Of a DNA stretch of 64,000 nucleotides, positions 46,261 to 52,547 are shown in pieces. A program made the position numbers and the translations under genes. This DNA comes from Leeuwenhoekiella aequorea (lineage in GTDB: Bacteria; Bacteroidota; Bacteroidia; Flavobacteriales; Flavobacteriaceae): NCBI RefSeq assembly GCF_004104375.1, contig NZ_QOVM01000008.1:1-64000 (forward strand), in the 5' to 3' direction. The notes beneath the pieces were generated by a model. The model did not search any database. It had not been told where the DNA came from and saw nothing but the letters and a program-made list of their open reading frames with translations. Each line of letters begins with the position of its first letter. Within the stretch, counting starts at the first letter, position 1.

Positions 46261-46885
46261 CTATATCGAAGATTTAAAATGGCGCTACGCCACTAAGAAG
46301 TTTGACGCAACTAAAGAAGTTAGTCCGGAAGAACTCGAAAACCTAAAAGAGGCTGTTCAACTATCAGCGTCATCGTATGGCTTACAACCTTATAAAATAC
46401 TCATTGTTAAAGATTCTAAGGTTAAAGCTCAACTTAAAGAAGCTGGTTACAATCAATCGCAATTCACAGATGCTTCAGAAATATTTGTATTTGCACATCA
46501 AACCGATTTTGGTCCTGAATTAGTAGACAGTTATATCGCTCATGCAGAACGCATTCAAGATGTAGAAAAAGGAAGTATGGATGACTATGCTAATATGATG
46601 AAAGGTAGCCTTGTTTCTCTTCCGCAAGAAGCAAAAGCGGGATGGACAGCAAGACAAACATATATAGCTATTGGAAACTTATTAAGTGCTGCTGCAACTT
46701 ATAAAATCGATGCGTGCCCAATGGAAGGTTTTGATGCTGAAAAATTTGATGAAATTCTAAACCTTAAGGATACCAATTTACACGCAATAGCAGTAGTTGC
46801 TATCGGCTACCGAAGTGAAGATGATAAATATCAACATGGCAAAAAGGTAAGACGTCCTCAATCTGAACTTTTTAAAACTATATAA
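46253..46885 (+). CDS. NAD(P)H-dependent nitroreductase-family flavoprotein
   Basis: The 210-residue protein is the usual length for FMN-dependent nitroreductases of the NfsB/DrgA type. The N-terminal block YIEDLKWRYATKKFD and the SASSYGLQPYKILIVKD region bind FMN. SAAATYKIDACPMEGFDAEKF is the conserved central helix, and AVVAIGYRSEDDKY is the C-terminal FMN contact. It reduces quinones or nitro compounds with NAD(P)H; the physiological substrate is unknown. Translation is coupled to marR by an eight-base overlap, which suggests a stress-inducible operon together with yceI. Confidence 0.92.
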   Translation: MNNYIEDLKWRYATKKFDATKEVSPEELENLKEAVQLSASSYGLQPYKILIVKDSKVKAQLKEAGYNQSQFTDASEIFVFAHQTDFGPELVDSYIAHAERIQDVEKGSMDDYANMMKGSLVSLPQEAKAGWTARQTYIAIGNLLSAAATYKIDACPMEGFDAEKFDEILNLKDTNLHAIAVVAIGYRSEDDKYQHGKKVRRPQSELFKTI

Positions 46886-46917
46886 ATCAACAATAAATAA
46901 TCTAAATACATATTATT

Positions 46918-47484
46918 ATGAAAACCACTATTAAATCAATTCTTATTCTTGCTGTGGGCGTTGCAGCAGCATCATTTACCTCAAAACCCGTAGAGCGCGT
47001 AACTGTCAAAAAAAGTACCATTAACTGGGAAGGAGAAAAAGTAACCGGATCACACAACGGTACAATTAATCTTAAAGAAGGTTATTTTGAAATGGACGGT
47101 GATGCAATAACTGGTGGCGAATTTGTTATCGATATGACCAGCATCGCTGTAACCGATCTTGAGGGTGATAGTAAAGGACAACTAGAAGGACACCTTAAAA
47201 GTGATGACTTTTTTGGCACAAGCTCTCATGCTACTGCAAAACTTGTAATCACCAAAGCTGTAAAGCAAGGATCTACTTATAAAGTAACTGGAGATTTAAC
47301 TATTAAAGACATAACTAAACCGATTAGTTTTGATTTAAACAAAGCGGGCAACACGCTGTCAACAGAGCTTACAGTAGATCGCACAAAATATAATGTTCGA
47401 TATGGTTCTGGAAGCTTCTTTGATAACCTTGGAGACAAAACGATTTATGATGACTTTAAATTAGATATTAAACTATACATATAA
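46918..47484 (+). CDS. YceI-family exported lipocalin-like protein
   Basis: The 188-residue protein has a short signal peptide (KSILILAVGVAAASFTSKP) and a YceI beta-barrel domain. The family blocks STINWEGEKVTGSHNGTINL, GGEFVIDMTSIAV, GHLKSDDFFG and VTGDLTIKDITKPISF are present. YceI proteins bind isoprenoid or polyprenyl-like lipids in the periplasm. It is the third gene of the marR-nitroreductase-yceI operon, 32 bases after the nitroreductase. A redox-active lipid or quinone link between the two is possible. No clear terminator separates it from the trp promoter 29 bases downstream. Confidence 0.92.
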   Translation: MKTTIKSILILAVGVAAASFTSKPVERVTVKKSTINWEGEKVTGSHNGTINLKEGYFEMDGDAITGGEFVIDMTSIAVTDLEGDSKGQLEGHLKSDDFFGTSSHATAKLVITKAVKQGSTYKVTGDLTIKDITKPISFDLNKAGNTLSTELTVDRTKYNVRYGSGSFFDNLGDKTIYDDFKLDIKLYI

Positions 47485-47512
47485 ATTTTTTAAAAGTTAT
47501 TTTGAATTTTGT

Positions 47513-47542
47513 TTGTTAGCTGTTCTTCAATAATTATCTTTG
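47513..47542 (+). promoter_or_regulatory. Promoter of the trp operon
   Basis: TTG at 47513-47515, a 19-base spacer, and TATCTTTG at 47535-47542 give a perfect match to the Bacteroidota promoter consensus (TTG-N19-TAnnTTTG). The start codon of the trp leader peptide is only eight bases after the -7 box, so the transcript should have a 5' leader of about 0-5 bases. Confidence 0.85.
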
Positions 47543-47550
47543 ATGTAAAT

Positions 47551-47598
47551 ATGAAAAACAAAGCATTAAATATTTGGTGGTGGATCTCGCAACAGTAA
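47551..47598 (+). CDS. trpL: trp operon leader peptide
   Basis: The 15-codon ORF reads MKNKALNIWWWISQQ and ends with TAA. Three consecutive Trp codons at positions 9-11 make it a classical sensor of charged tRNA-Trp: a ribosome that stalls there favours the antiterminator over the terminator that follows 39 bases later. It begins eight bases after a consensus -7 box, so it is probably translated from a nearly leaderless mRNA. It was identified by reading the region upstream of trpE. Confidence 0.93.
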   Translation: MKNKALNIWWWISQQ

Positions 47599-47599
47599 C

Positions 47600-47665
47600 G
47601 TCGTGAACAAACCTTGTATTTAAAATTCAAATAAAGAAAGGCCTGTCTCACGACAGGCCTTTTTT
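47600..47665 (+). promoter_or_regulatory. trp attenuator: antiterminator segment and terminator
   Basis: Gtcgtga (47600-47606), right after the leader stop codon, is exactly complementary to tcacgac (47648-47654). The latter covers the loop and the first bases of the 3' arm of the downstream terminator. This pairing would block formation of the terminator. It is only seven base pairs long, so additional contacts may exist. Confidence 0.75.
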
Positions 47666-47666
47666 G
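47637..47666 (+). terminator. trp attenuator terminator hairpin
   Basis: Aaaggcctgtc (47637-47647) pairs perfectly with gacaggccttt (47652-47662), with a 4-base loop, and is followed by more T's to 47665. It lies between trpL and trpE and should terminate when leader translation is completed. Confidence 0.92.
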
Positions 47667-47688
47667 TTATTAGCAGATCAACATCATA

Positions 47689-49086
47689 ATGAAATACACT
47701 TTAAAAACTTTTAGAAAAAAAATACTTGCAGATACGATAACTCCTGTTTCAGTATACTTGCGTTTGCGGGATAAGTTTCCTAATAGTCTACTACTTGAAA
47801 GTAGTGACTACCGGGCTAACGACAACACCTTCAGTTACATTTGCTGTAAACCCATCGCGTCTATTACGGTTCAAGATGAATGTGTAAAAGAGATTTTTCC
47901 TGACGGCACTACCAGAGAAACAAATATTACTTCAGAAACCGATGTGGTAGGTATTATTGAGGTTTTCGCTAAAACTTTTGATACAGATACAAATGACCAG
48001 AAATTTATTCAAAACGGTCTTTTTGGTTATATGAGTTATGATGCTGTGCGTTATTTCGAAAATATTTCGGTTACTAAAAAAGAAGGGGCTTTACAAGTGC
48101 CTGATATTTATTATGCAGTCTATCAAAATATTATTGCAATAAATCACTTCAATAACGAGGCACATATTCTCTCTCACACCTATAATGAAGATAATAATCT
48201 GGAAGAAATCGCTCAGTTACTTAAAATCAAAAGCTTTGCAGAATATAGTTTTAAGTTAGAAGGTGAGCGCACAAGTGTTACCACAGATGAAGAGTTTAAA
48301 GAACTCGTAAGCACTTGTAAAAAACATTGTCAACGAGGTGATGTTTTTCAGATTGTACCATCAAAACGGTTTTCACAAGCGTTTAGTGGTGACGAATTTA
48401 ATGTTTACAGAAGCTTGCGCAGTGTAAACCCTTCTCCATATCTGTTTTATTTTGACTATGGAAACTTTAAAATTTTTGGCAGCTCTCCTGAAGCACAATT
48501 AATTGTTCAGGATGGTAAAGCTGAAATTCATCCTATTGCAGGTACTTTTAAACGTACAGGTAATGATGAGCAAGATGCAGATTTAGCTAAGAAACTTTCT
48601 GAAGATGCTAAAGAAAATAGTGAGCACGTAATGCTTGTTGACCTCGCGCGTAATGATCTTAGTCGCAATGGTTCTAATGTTAAGGTTGAAACCTATAGAG
48701 AAGTACAGTTCTTTTCTCACGTAATTCATTTAGTGAGTAAAGTTACTGGTACTAAACACCCGGAAACGTCAACTATGCGTGTGGTGGCAGATACTTTCCC
48801 TGCAGGCACCTTAAGTGGTGCACCTAAACACAACGCAATGAAATTACTTGAAAATTATGAGCCTATTAATCGTGACGTTTACGGTGGGGCAATTGGTTTT
48901 ATGGATTTTAATGGCAATTTTAATCACGCCATAATTATTCGTTCATTTTTGAGTAAAAATCACAAATTACATTACCAAGCTGGAGCTGGTGTTGTTAGCG
49001 ATAGCGTTCCTGAAAAAGAATTGGAAGAGGTTTATAACAAACTAGGAGCACTTACTAAAGCACTTGAACTGGCTGAAGAAATTTAA
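47689..49086 (+). CDS. trpE: Anthranilate synthase component I
   Basis: The 465-residue protein forms anthranilate from chorismate with ammonia from TrpG. The Trp-feedback motif LLES is present at residues 35-38. The catalytic chorismate-binding domain occupies the C-terminal half: FQIVPSKRFS, SPYLFYFDYG, HPIAGTFKRTG, LVDLARNDLSR and GAGVVSDSVPEKE. The feedback motif indicates allosteric inhibition by tryptophan in addition to attenuation upstream. It is the first structural gene of the trp operon, 23 bases after the terminator, and is followed by trpG after a 100-base gap with two small hairpins. Confidence 0.97.
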   Translation: MKYTLKTFRKKILADTITPVSVYLRLRDKFPNSLLLESSDYRANDNTFSYICCKPIASITVQDECVKEIFPDGTTRETNITSETDVVGIIEVFAKTFDTDTNDQKFIQNGLFGYMSYDAVRYFENISVTKKEGALQVPDIYYAVYQNIIAINHFNNEAHILSHTYNEDNNLEEIAQLLKIKSFAEYSFKLEGERTSVTTDEEFKELVSTCKKHCQRGDVFQIVPSKRFSQAFSGDEFNVYRSLRSVNPSPYLFYFDYGNFKIFGSSPEAQLIVQDGKAEIHPIAGTFKRTGNDEQDADLAKKLSEDAKENSEHVMLVDLARNDLSRNGSNVKVETYREVQFFSHVIHLVSKVTGTKHPETSTMRVVADTFPAGTLSGAPKHNAMKLLENYEPINRDVYGGAIGFMDFNGNFNHAIIIRSFLSKNHKLHYQAGAGVVSDSVPEKELEEVYNKLGALTKALELAEEI

Positions 49087-51797: not shown

Positions 51798-52547
51798 ATG
51801 ACACAAAATAATAGTCCATCTTCTAGCAATAATTTGGCTCCTGAAAAAGCGGAAGCATTACGTATTAAAGTTTGCGGAATGAAGTCGAACACAGCTGAGG
51901 TTTCGAGACTTCTGCCAGACTATTTAGGATTTATATTTTATGATAAAAGTCCGCGTAATTTTGAGTTGCAGCAAATACCATCTATACCAGAAGGTGTAAA
52001 AAAAGTAGGTGTATTTGTCAATGCGGAGATTGATTTTATTTTAGAAAAAGTGCAGCAGTTTAACTTTGATGTAATTCAACTGCACGGTAGCGAATCACCG
52101 GAATATTGCCAGGAACTGAGAAAACGCTGTCAGATCGAGCGCAGTCGTGATCTGCAAAAAAATGCTACACCGACTGCATTCGAGGTGTCTTCCGGAAATC
52201 AAATCAAACTCTGGAAAGTTTTCAGTATTAAAGATGCTTTCGATTTTTCAATATTAGAAAGCTATGAGGCGGTAGTCGATGCATTTTTATTTGATACAAA
52301 AGGGAAAGAGAAAGGTGGGAATGGGTATACTTTTGATTGGAATGTGCTAAAAGCTTATTCTTCAAAAAAACCATTTGTTCTGAGTGGTGGTATTGGACTC
52401 GAAGAAATTGAATCTGTAAAAGAATTGATAAAATTAAATCTTCCCCTCTATGCTATCGATGTTAATAGCAAATTTGAAATAGAACCGGGATTAAAGAATA
52501 CAGCTGATTTAAGTGATTTATTTTCAGCTTTTAAAACTAAAAAATAA
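51798..52547 (+). CDS. trpF: Phosphoribosylanthranilate isomerase with an in-frame repeat insertion
   Basis: The 249-residue protein is about 40 residues longer than typical TrpF. The catalytic blocks are present: RIKVCGMKSNTAEVSRL with the Cys, FDVIQLHGSESPEYCQEL, FDTKGKEKGGNGYTFDW with the Asp, and LSGGIGLEEIESV for phosphate. Two regions explain the extra length. One is a polar 22-residue N-terminal extension. The other is an insertion at residues about 111-132 (CQIERSRDLQKNATPTAFEV), encoded by a GC-rich inverted repeat between ELRKR and IKLWKVFS. The frame is kept. It sits on a surface loop before a core strand, so activity is probably retained. Confidence 0.92.
   Translation: MTQNNSPSSSNNLAPEKAEALRIKVCGMKSNTAEVSRLLPDYLGFIFYDKSPRNFELQQIPSIPEGVKKVGVFVNAEIDFILEKVQQFNFDVIQLHGSESPEYCQELRKRCQIERSRDLQKNATPTAFEVSSGNQIKLWKVFSIKDAFDFSILESYEAVVDAFLFDTKGKEKGGNGYTFDWNVLKAYSSKKPFVLSGGIGLEEIESVKELIKLNLPLYAIDVNSKFEIEPGLKNTADLSDLFSAFKTKK
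52131..52187 (+). repeat. Imperfect inverted repeat inserted in trpF
   Basis: Cgagcgcagtcg (52136-52147) and cgactgcattcg (52171-52182) are arms matching at 10 of 12 positions with a 23-base loop. The arms extend to 52131 and 52187 with 13 of 17 matching. The left arm is identical to the core of the repeat in fcl (39281-39306), 13 kb away. Confidence 0.75.

Follow-up and report, generated by a model that had tools for sequence, protein, structure and literature searches.

The window analysed here is a 64-kb stretch of the Leeuwenhoekiella aequorea genome; all coordinates are positions within it, and L-numbers (L006 and the like) are labels of compared loci. It carries the trp operon trpEGDCFBA on the plus strand, preceded by a short leader ORF that lies only 66 nt from yceI. 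The following features were located.

47513-47515, plus strand: TTG, the -33 element, read in the sequence
47528-47647, plus strand: match to RF01692 Bacteroid-trp, whose first model positions fall on the promoter
47535-47542, plus strand: TATCTTTG (TAHHTTTG), the -7 element, read in the sequence
47547-47548, plus strand: predicted transcription start (A), leaving a 5' UTR of 4 or 3 nt
47551-47598, plus strand: leader ORF of 15 codons, MKNKALNIWWWISQQ plus TAA, with its ATG at 47551 and its stop at 47596-47598
47566-47623, plus strand: hairpin 1:2 (protector), joining the Trp-codon region to its downstream partner in the window fold
47575-47583, plus strand: three Trp codons, the proposed stalling site, from sequence and comparison
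47600-47606, plus strand: segment 2, GTCGTGA, the 5' side of the antiterminator, from sequence, pairing counts and alignment
47637-47665, plus strand: intrinsic terminator, stem 47637-47647/47652-47662, loop TCAC, T run 47660-47665
47648-47654, plus strand: segment 3, TCACGAC, terminator loop and start of the 3' arm, pairing with segment 2
47689-49086, plus strand: trpE, first gene of the controlled operon, an ORF with Pfam PF00425 and PF04715
49187-54694, plus strand: trpG, trpD, trpC, trpF, trpB and trpA, from ORFs and Pfam

The promoter elements, the 15-codon ORF, the terminator and the seven-base pairing reported in a preliminary description of this DNA are all in place. The spacer between TTG and TATCTTTG is 19 nt (47513-47542), and 8 nt (47543-47550) separate the box from the leader ATG.

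The covariance model of RF01692 Bacteroid-trp scores the region at 54.7 bits, above its gathering cut-off of 49, and this is the sole Rfam family to reach its gathering score within the 64-kb window; no T-box model did so in the same scan. The family appears in Weinberg et al. 2010 (PMC2864571). The window resembles it in the trp genes downstream (trpEGDCFBA, in a Bacteroidota host), the Trp-rich ORF and the hairpins, but the Rfam model takes in about 20 nt before the AUG, and in the window those nucleotides are the promoter. The attenuator belongs to this known family, and its conserved, predicted near-leaderless start is a lineage-specific variant. In a draw of 198 genomes from the phylum, run with stricter filters that miss weak matches, RF01692 was found in 18 genomes at E <= 0.001, of which the 16 above the cut-off, the window's genome counted, all belong to the window's own family; it was also found in one of 14 control genomes, Bacteroides ihuae. 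Among the matches listed for TrpE, the best named ones are from Leeuwenhoekiella, with 88-89% identity, and identity reaches 93% to one further genome of the genus. Attenuation by stalled ribosomes had been described as established in proteobacteria; it is not confined to them, as indicated by the RF01692 match and by the clues for leader-peptide attenuation at amino-acid operons that a passage of PMC9723704 draws from the Flavobacterium psychrophilum transcriptome.

Leader ORF and competing hairpins

We fetched the best 80 of 587 confirmed trpE loci (more existed) and examined 81 with the window included; L013, L020 and L040 were excluded for too little upstream DNA, which left 78. An in-frame ATG...Trp-Trp ORF was present in all 78 loci of this set, with three Trp codons in 74 and two in L027, L029, L033 and L078. 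Together with 17 leaders from the RF01692 search, whose recovery depends on the motif, 95 leaders were compared, and the first Trp codon lies 24 nt from the ATG in 86 of them. The script found no leader at L266, a trpE locus of the same genus. Classical attenuators are arranged in this way, a short ORF containing tandem Trp codons preceding the first structural gene. A Trp-sensing device that works without leader translation (T-box, TRAP-like or other RNA) is highly improbable: a strong terminator alone would fit it and no specific support for it was found, whereas RF01692 as the only Rfam family at gathering score and the in-frame Trp codons in every locus of the best-80 set plus window argue against it.

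Some leaders depart from the common form. Leeuwenhoekiella marinoflava and L. aestuarii (L006, L007) have 30 additional in-frame codons that separate the near-leaderless ATG from the Trp codons. In Salegentibacter salarius (L041), ATA replaces the near-leaderless ATG of its relatives and the next in-frame ATG is 38 nt from the box, which makes this leader a natural test case.

The region 47545-47680 folds at -33.9 kcal/mol against a shuffle mean of -21.6 kcal/mol (z -3.7) and beats all 200 shuffles. A terminator is present in all 94 leaders handled by script; the window's own leader and terminator were entered by coordinates, outside these 94. A simple terminator scan marked the window hairpin on the minus strand only, and in the plus-strand fold the pairing of the terminator stem extends into the T run. 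Segment 2 can pair with the terminator loop and 3' arm over at least six contiguous pairs in 88 of the 95 leaders (2.3 expected from shuffles), and over at least five in 94 (11.6 expected), L220 and L221 fitting poorly. The seven-base antiterminator pairing previously described is present, but it is not the sole alternative: it is one of three mutually exclusive pairings, predicted and conserved as protector, antiterminator and terminator hairpins.

The position of segment 2 was compared with that of the Trp codons. Of the 92 leaders that have its CGTG core, 89 carry it 18-20 nt downstream of the final Trp codon, whereas measured from the stop codon the core sits at -7, -2, +4, +6, +8 or +10 and occurs in all three frames. 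The RNA, and not the end of the peptide, thus seems to be under selection. Considering the size of the ribosome footprint, the CGTG site seems to be left free by a ribosome on the Trp codons and covered by one at the stop codon.

Covariation was examined in an alignment of 68 of the 95 leaders, from which near-duplicates and long inserts were omitted by hand. The six inner pairs of the antiterminator are kept in 62-68 of the 68, and two of them are each double-changed in a single leader; the outermost pair is kept in only 35. Paired cells reach 91% against 45% in a control slid by +3, although the covariation score of that control is 0.086 vs 0.055 for the structure itself. The terminator shows double changes at 6 of its 10 predicted pairs. 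In hairpin 1:2, 84.1% of cells are paired in the apical helix, where 4 of 6 pairs show double changes, and 67.7% in the basal helix; overall, 73.5% of cells are paired vs 55.6% in a control slid by -3, in which 8 pairs and 32 cells are double-changed vs 7 and 30 for the structure. These counts support the three predicted structures, short of proof, and covariation of the 2:3 pairing is thin. The Trp codons and hairpins are kept in relatives and a few compensatory changes are seen in the pairing of 47600-47606 with 47648-47654, which are the signs that the preliminary description had proposed to look for. Its reading of the locus as a ribosome-type trp attenuator is borne out by the RF01692 score, the in-frame Trp codons of all 78 loci and the 2:3 pairing in 88 of 95 leaders, and the attenuator itself, a prediction from sequence, is strongly supported by the comparison.

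Promoter position and proposed mechanism

The promoter had been called perfect. Its elements are present, but the pattern alone is at chance level, and place and conservation decide. TTG-N19-TAHHTTTG was rejected as stand-alone evidence with 2 matches in the window vs 1.34 expected, as was TAHHTTTG-N4-8-ATG with 288 matches in the genome vs 257 for the reversed pattern. A background sample of 264 kb (the window plus ten stretches of the genome) provided 135 ORFs of at least 120 aa with an upstream gap of at least 50 nt, their starts taken as the first ATG and some of them wrong; a box stands within 200 nt of the start in 50 of the ORFs, 9 of which have it at 4-9 nt. Of the 78 trpE loci, 76 have an exact box no more than 60 nt from the leader ATG. 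Among the 95 leaders, 90 have a usable exact box, and TTG stands at a spacer of 18-20 nt in 65 of these vs only 3 of the 50 background boxes.

According to PMC6847099, transcription from probable promoters of F. johnsoniae starts 4 or 5 nt after TAHHTTTG, and 87% of leaders there are longer than 10 nt; PMC9723704 places the F. psychrophilum box at -12 to -5. About 3.7% of B. thetaiotaomicron 5' UTRs are shorter than 10 nt (PMC7366714). Because the box-to-start spacing in Flavobacterium is 4-5 nt, the window RNA is expected to start at 47547 or 47548, 4 or 3 nt before the AUG, a well-founded prediction from the promoter position. Such a UTR would leave no room for a Shine-Dalgarno site ahead of the leader ATG, in agreement with the preliminary description. 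The latter had also put the UTR at about 0-5 nt; the ORF does lie almost at the predicted 5' end, while truly leaderless forms are predicted in the loci of other genera with a 5-nt distance (29 of 78), where the UTR would be 0-1 nt.

The distance between box and ATG is 4-9 nt in 57 of the 78 trpE loci (best-80 set plus window), in 19 named genera and 14 rows without a genus name. It falls at 4-6 nt in 32 loci (exactly 5 nt in 29), at 7-9 nt in 25 and at 10-12 nt in 15; the outliers are two loci at 18 nt, one each at 30 and 38 nt, and two without an exact box. The value for L006 and L007 was set by hand to 9 (the script gave 0, an ATG overlapping the box), and L010 and L012 were entered for the tree with TATCTTTA at 8 and 11 nt, as seen by eye. 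Besides the window, 11 TrpE loci of the genus were compared, some of them probably conspecific with the named ones: ten are at 7-11 nt, and L266 is the one without a leader by script. The 17 added RF01692 matches comprise nine from one genus (g15, perhaps Flavobacterium) at 16-20 nt, two from other genera at 16 and 18 nt, five at 5-7 nt and one without an exact box. The g15 forms thus differ from the window at 8 nt and its relatives, often at 5 nt. On the TrpE tree, four distance classes need 14 changes against 37.3 in shuffles, so the trait is clustered yet has moved several times. A short distance is not required for this trp attenuator, because two of the 78 loci have no exact box, 15 are at 10-12 nt and four are at 18 nt or more.

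It is unlikely that the attenuator works as described while its main transcripts start further upstream, with an ordinary 5' UTR on which ribosome loading would be nothing unusual. As yceI is so close and a terminator scan of 46500-48500 showed no other terminator-like site, read-through could give longer transcripts, and the nine g15 matches have their boxes at 16-20 nt. Leaderless starts are also uncommon a priori: 5.5% of 890 F. psychrophilum mRNAs are given as leaderless (PMC9723704). An upstream start would, however, not account for a sigma-A type box kept beside the ATG in most trpE loci of the best-80 set plus window, nor for the enrichment of TTG at 18-20 nt over background.

The best explanation, and a likely one, is a ribosome-mediated attenuator of trpEGDCFBA whose RNA starts 3-4 nt before the leader AUG. 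RNA polymerase would start at about 47547-47548, and a ribosome, needing no Shine-Dalgarno pairing, would load at the 5' end and read MKNKALNIWWWISQQ. With ample Trp-tRNA, the ribosome at the stop codon would cover segment 2, the terminator would form and transcription would end. With scarce Trp-tRNA, the ribosome would stall on the Trp codons and break hairpin 1:2, but segment 2 would stay free, its core being 18-20 nt downstream of the final Trp codon; free segment 2 would then pair with 47648-47654, and the polymerase would continue into trpE. In the absence of translation, segment 2 would be held by hairpin 1:2 and the operon would be off. In E. coli trpL, tandem Trp codons precede protector, antiterminator and terminator hairpins, and the position of the ribosome decides between them. 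The window shares this logic of tandem Trp codons and three competing hairpins, but differs in its three consecutive Trp codons, in having no Shine-Dalgarno site, in its predicted 5' UTR of 3-4 nt and in an antiterminator core whose partner is the terminator loop together with the first part of the 3' arm.

We tentatively consider that in many Flavobacteriaceae the trp attenuator may depend on a leader ORF with a UTR of 0-4 nt that is kept by selection; ribosomes would load directly on the 5' AUG of the nascent RNA, and this would set the timing of transcription-translation coupling. That the near-leaderless layout is real but neutral, any short UTR working and the distance drifting between lineages, is a possibility to which we give somewhat less than an even chance. 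The 14 changes on the TrpE tree and the presence of the same hairpins in the 16-20 nt forms speak for drift, whereas the distance of exactly 5 nt in 29 of 78 loci speaks against it, as spacer sequences are varied (the 32 such leaders among the 95 have 17 different spacers). The concentration of 57 of 78 distances at 4-9 nt also speaks against drift, though indels could shift them.

Other amino-acid leaders and precedents

Leader peptides were also found in the window's genome before hisG (MKRTALHHHHFYSRTQAR, L091), pheA (MLNVPYFYSRYYFFFFIRETGPL, L192) and thrA (MKANTCITNFTIATRIGFATAFIITPRGII, L222). The thr leaders have a canonical box 17-20 nt before the ATG in four of the five stretches scanned (three of the genus and one of another genus; L226, of the same genus, has none). 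The distance is 19 nt in this genome, which would thus combine a near-leaderless trp leader with a thr leader of ordinary short UTR. Of 20 phe loci, 11 (10 of them same-genus) have a non-canonical TACTTTAG box 18-22 nt before the leader ATG, at 22 nt here; in three loci the box is at 11 nt, with a second in-frame ATG 9 nt further. A simple contrast with trp is blurred by L185, from another family of the same order, whose phe leader has a canonical TACTTTTG box at 8 nt. Of 13 same-genus his loci, 10 show the non-canonical box TAAATTCG 9-10 nt before the leader ATG, one has TATTTTCG at 7 nt and two lack a box; outside the genus the box is 17-27 nt away or absent. Both non-canonical forms were added after the sequences had been viewed, and they recur in the genus. 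By their box positions, his leaders in this genus may likewise be near-leaderless. The distances of the thr leaders (17-20 nt) and of the 11 phe leaders at 18-22 nt do not bear out a near-leaderless layout for all attenuators of the genus, and indicate that attenuation in these cells can do without a short distance. For ilvD (17 loci read, seven rescanned), the same-genus loci listed showed no leader except for a 10-aa ORF in L176; Ile/Val/Leu-rich ORFs precede ilvD of other genera in L164, L165 and L168.

The coupling of transcription and leader translation at this locus had been called mechanistically unusual. To judge by the title, Canestrari et al. 2020 reportedly treat mycobacterial polycysteine leaderless sORFs as amino-acid attenuators, with cysteine instead of tryptophan. 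In Sinorhizobium meliloti, the AUG is the first codon at the very 5' end of the trpL RNA, and Ribo-seq shows its translation, as stated in passages of PMC7298713 and PMC10117765. This trpL (rnTrpL) is likewise a trp attenuator with its leader ORF at the RNA 5' end, but it belongs to another phylum, and the 3-4 nt UTR of the window is a prediction. The trpL1 of Streptomyces lividans, MFAHSTRNWWWTAHPAAH, is described in parts of PMC8079986 as leaderless and followed by two hairpins and a uridine-rich stretch; like the window, it has three consecutive Trp codons ahead of trpE, but its host is an actinobacterium in which 17% of transcripts are leaderless (PMC8079986). The portion of PMC3890552 that names Corynebacterium glutamicum leader peptides does not mention leaderless starts. 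The leaderless leader peptides of S. meliloti and S. lividans mean that the mechanism is not new to biology. The new part would be its Bacteroidota variant, in which the ribosomes do without Shine-Dalgarno pairing; the titles and abstract openings of the matches listed in the open-licence literature name no near-leaderless attenuator from this phylum.

In Bacteroidota, where Shine-Dalgarno pairing is not used and leaderless mRNAs are a small minority, the way in which start codons are found is under study. A conserved near-leaderless ORF that has to be translated quickly enough to settle a termination event, such as the trp leader, would offer a natural and tunable readout of leaderless initiation in these bacteria. 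The longer-UTR relatives and the thr leader of the same genome would serve as its built-in controls.

Further observations in the trp operon

At one site of TrpF (52128-52202 in the window, within trpF at 51798-52547; L283-L291 in relatives), a loop contains an insert that differs in length and sequence within the genus. The inserts of same-genus relatives include HAELVSAS and VPRTEPVEV-repeat stretches, and the pattern looks as if interspersed repeats had entered the gene of an enzyme in frame more than once. For the 75-nt insert of the window, neither the window nor ten stretches of 20 kb showed a conspicuous second copy. In L024, L041, L051, L066 and L077, and by a matching fragment also in L038 and L073, the attenuator is separated from trpE by a small ORF for a GIY-YIG nuclease domain; its Pfam assignment (PF01541) comes from the L066 copy, the sole copy scanned.
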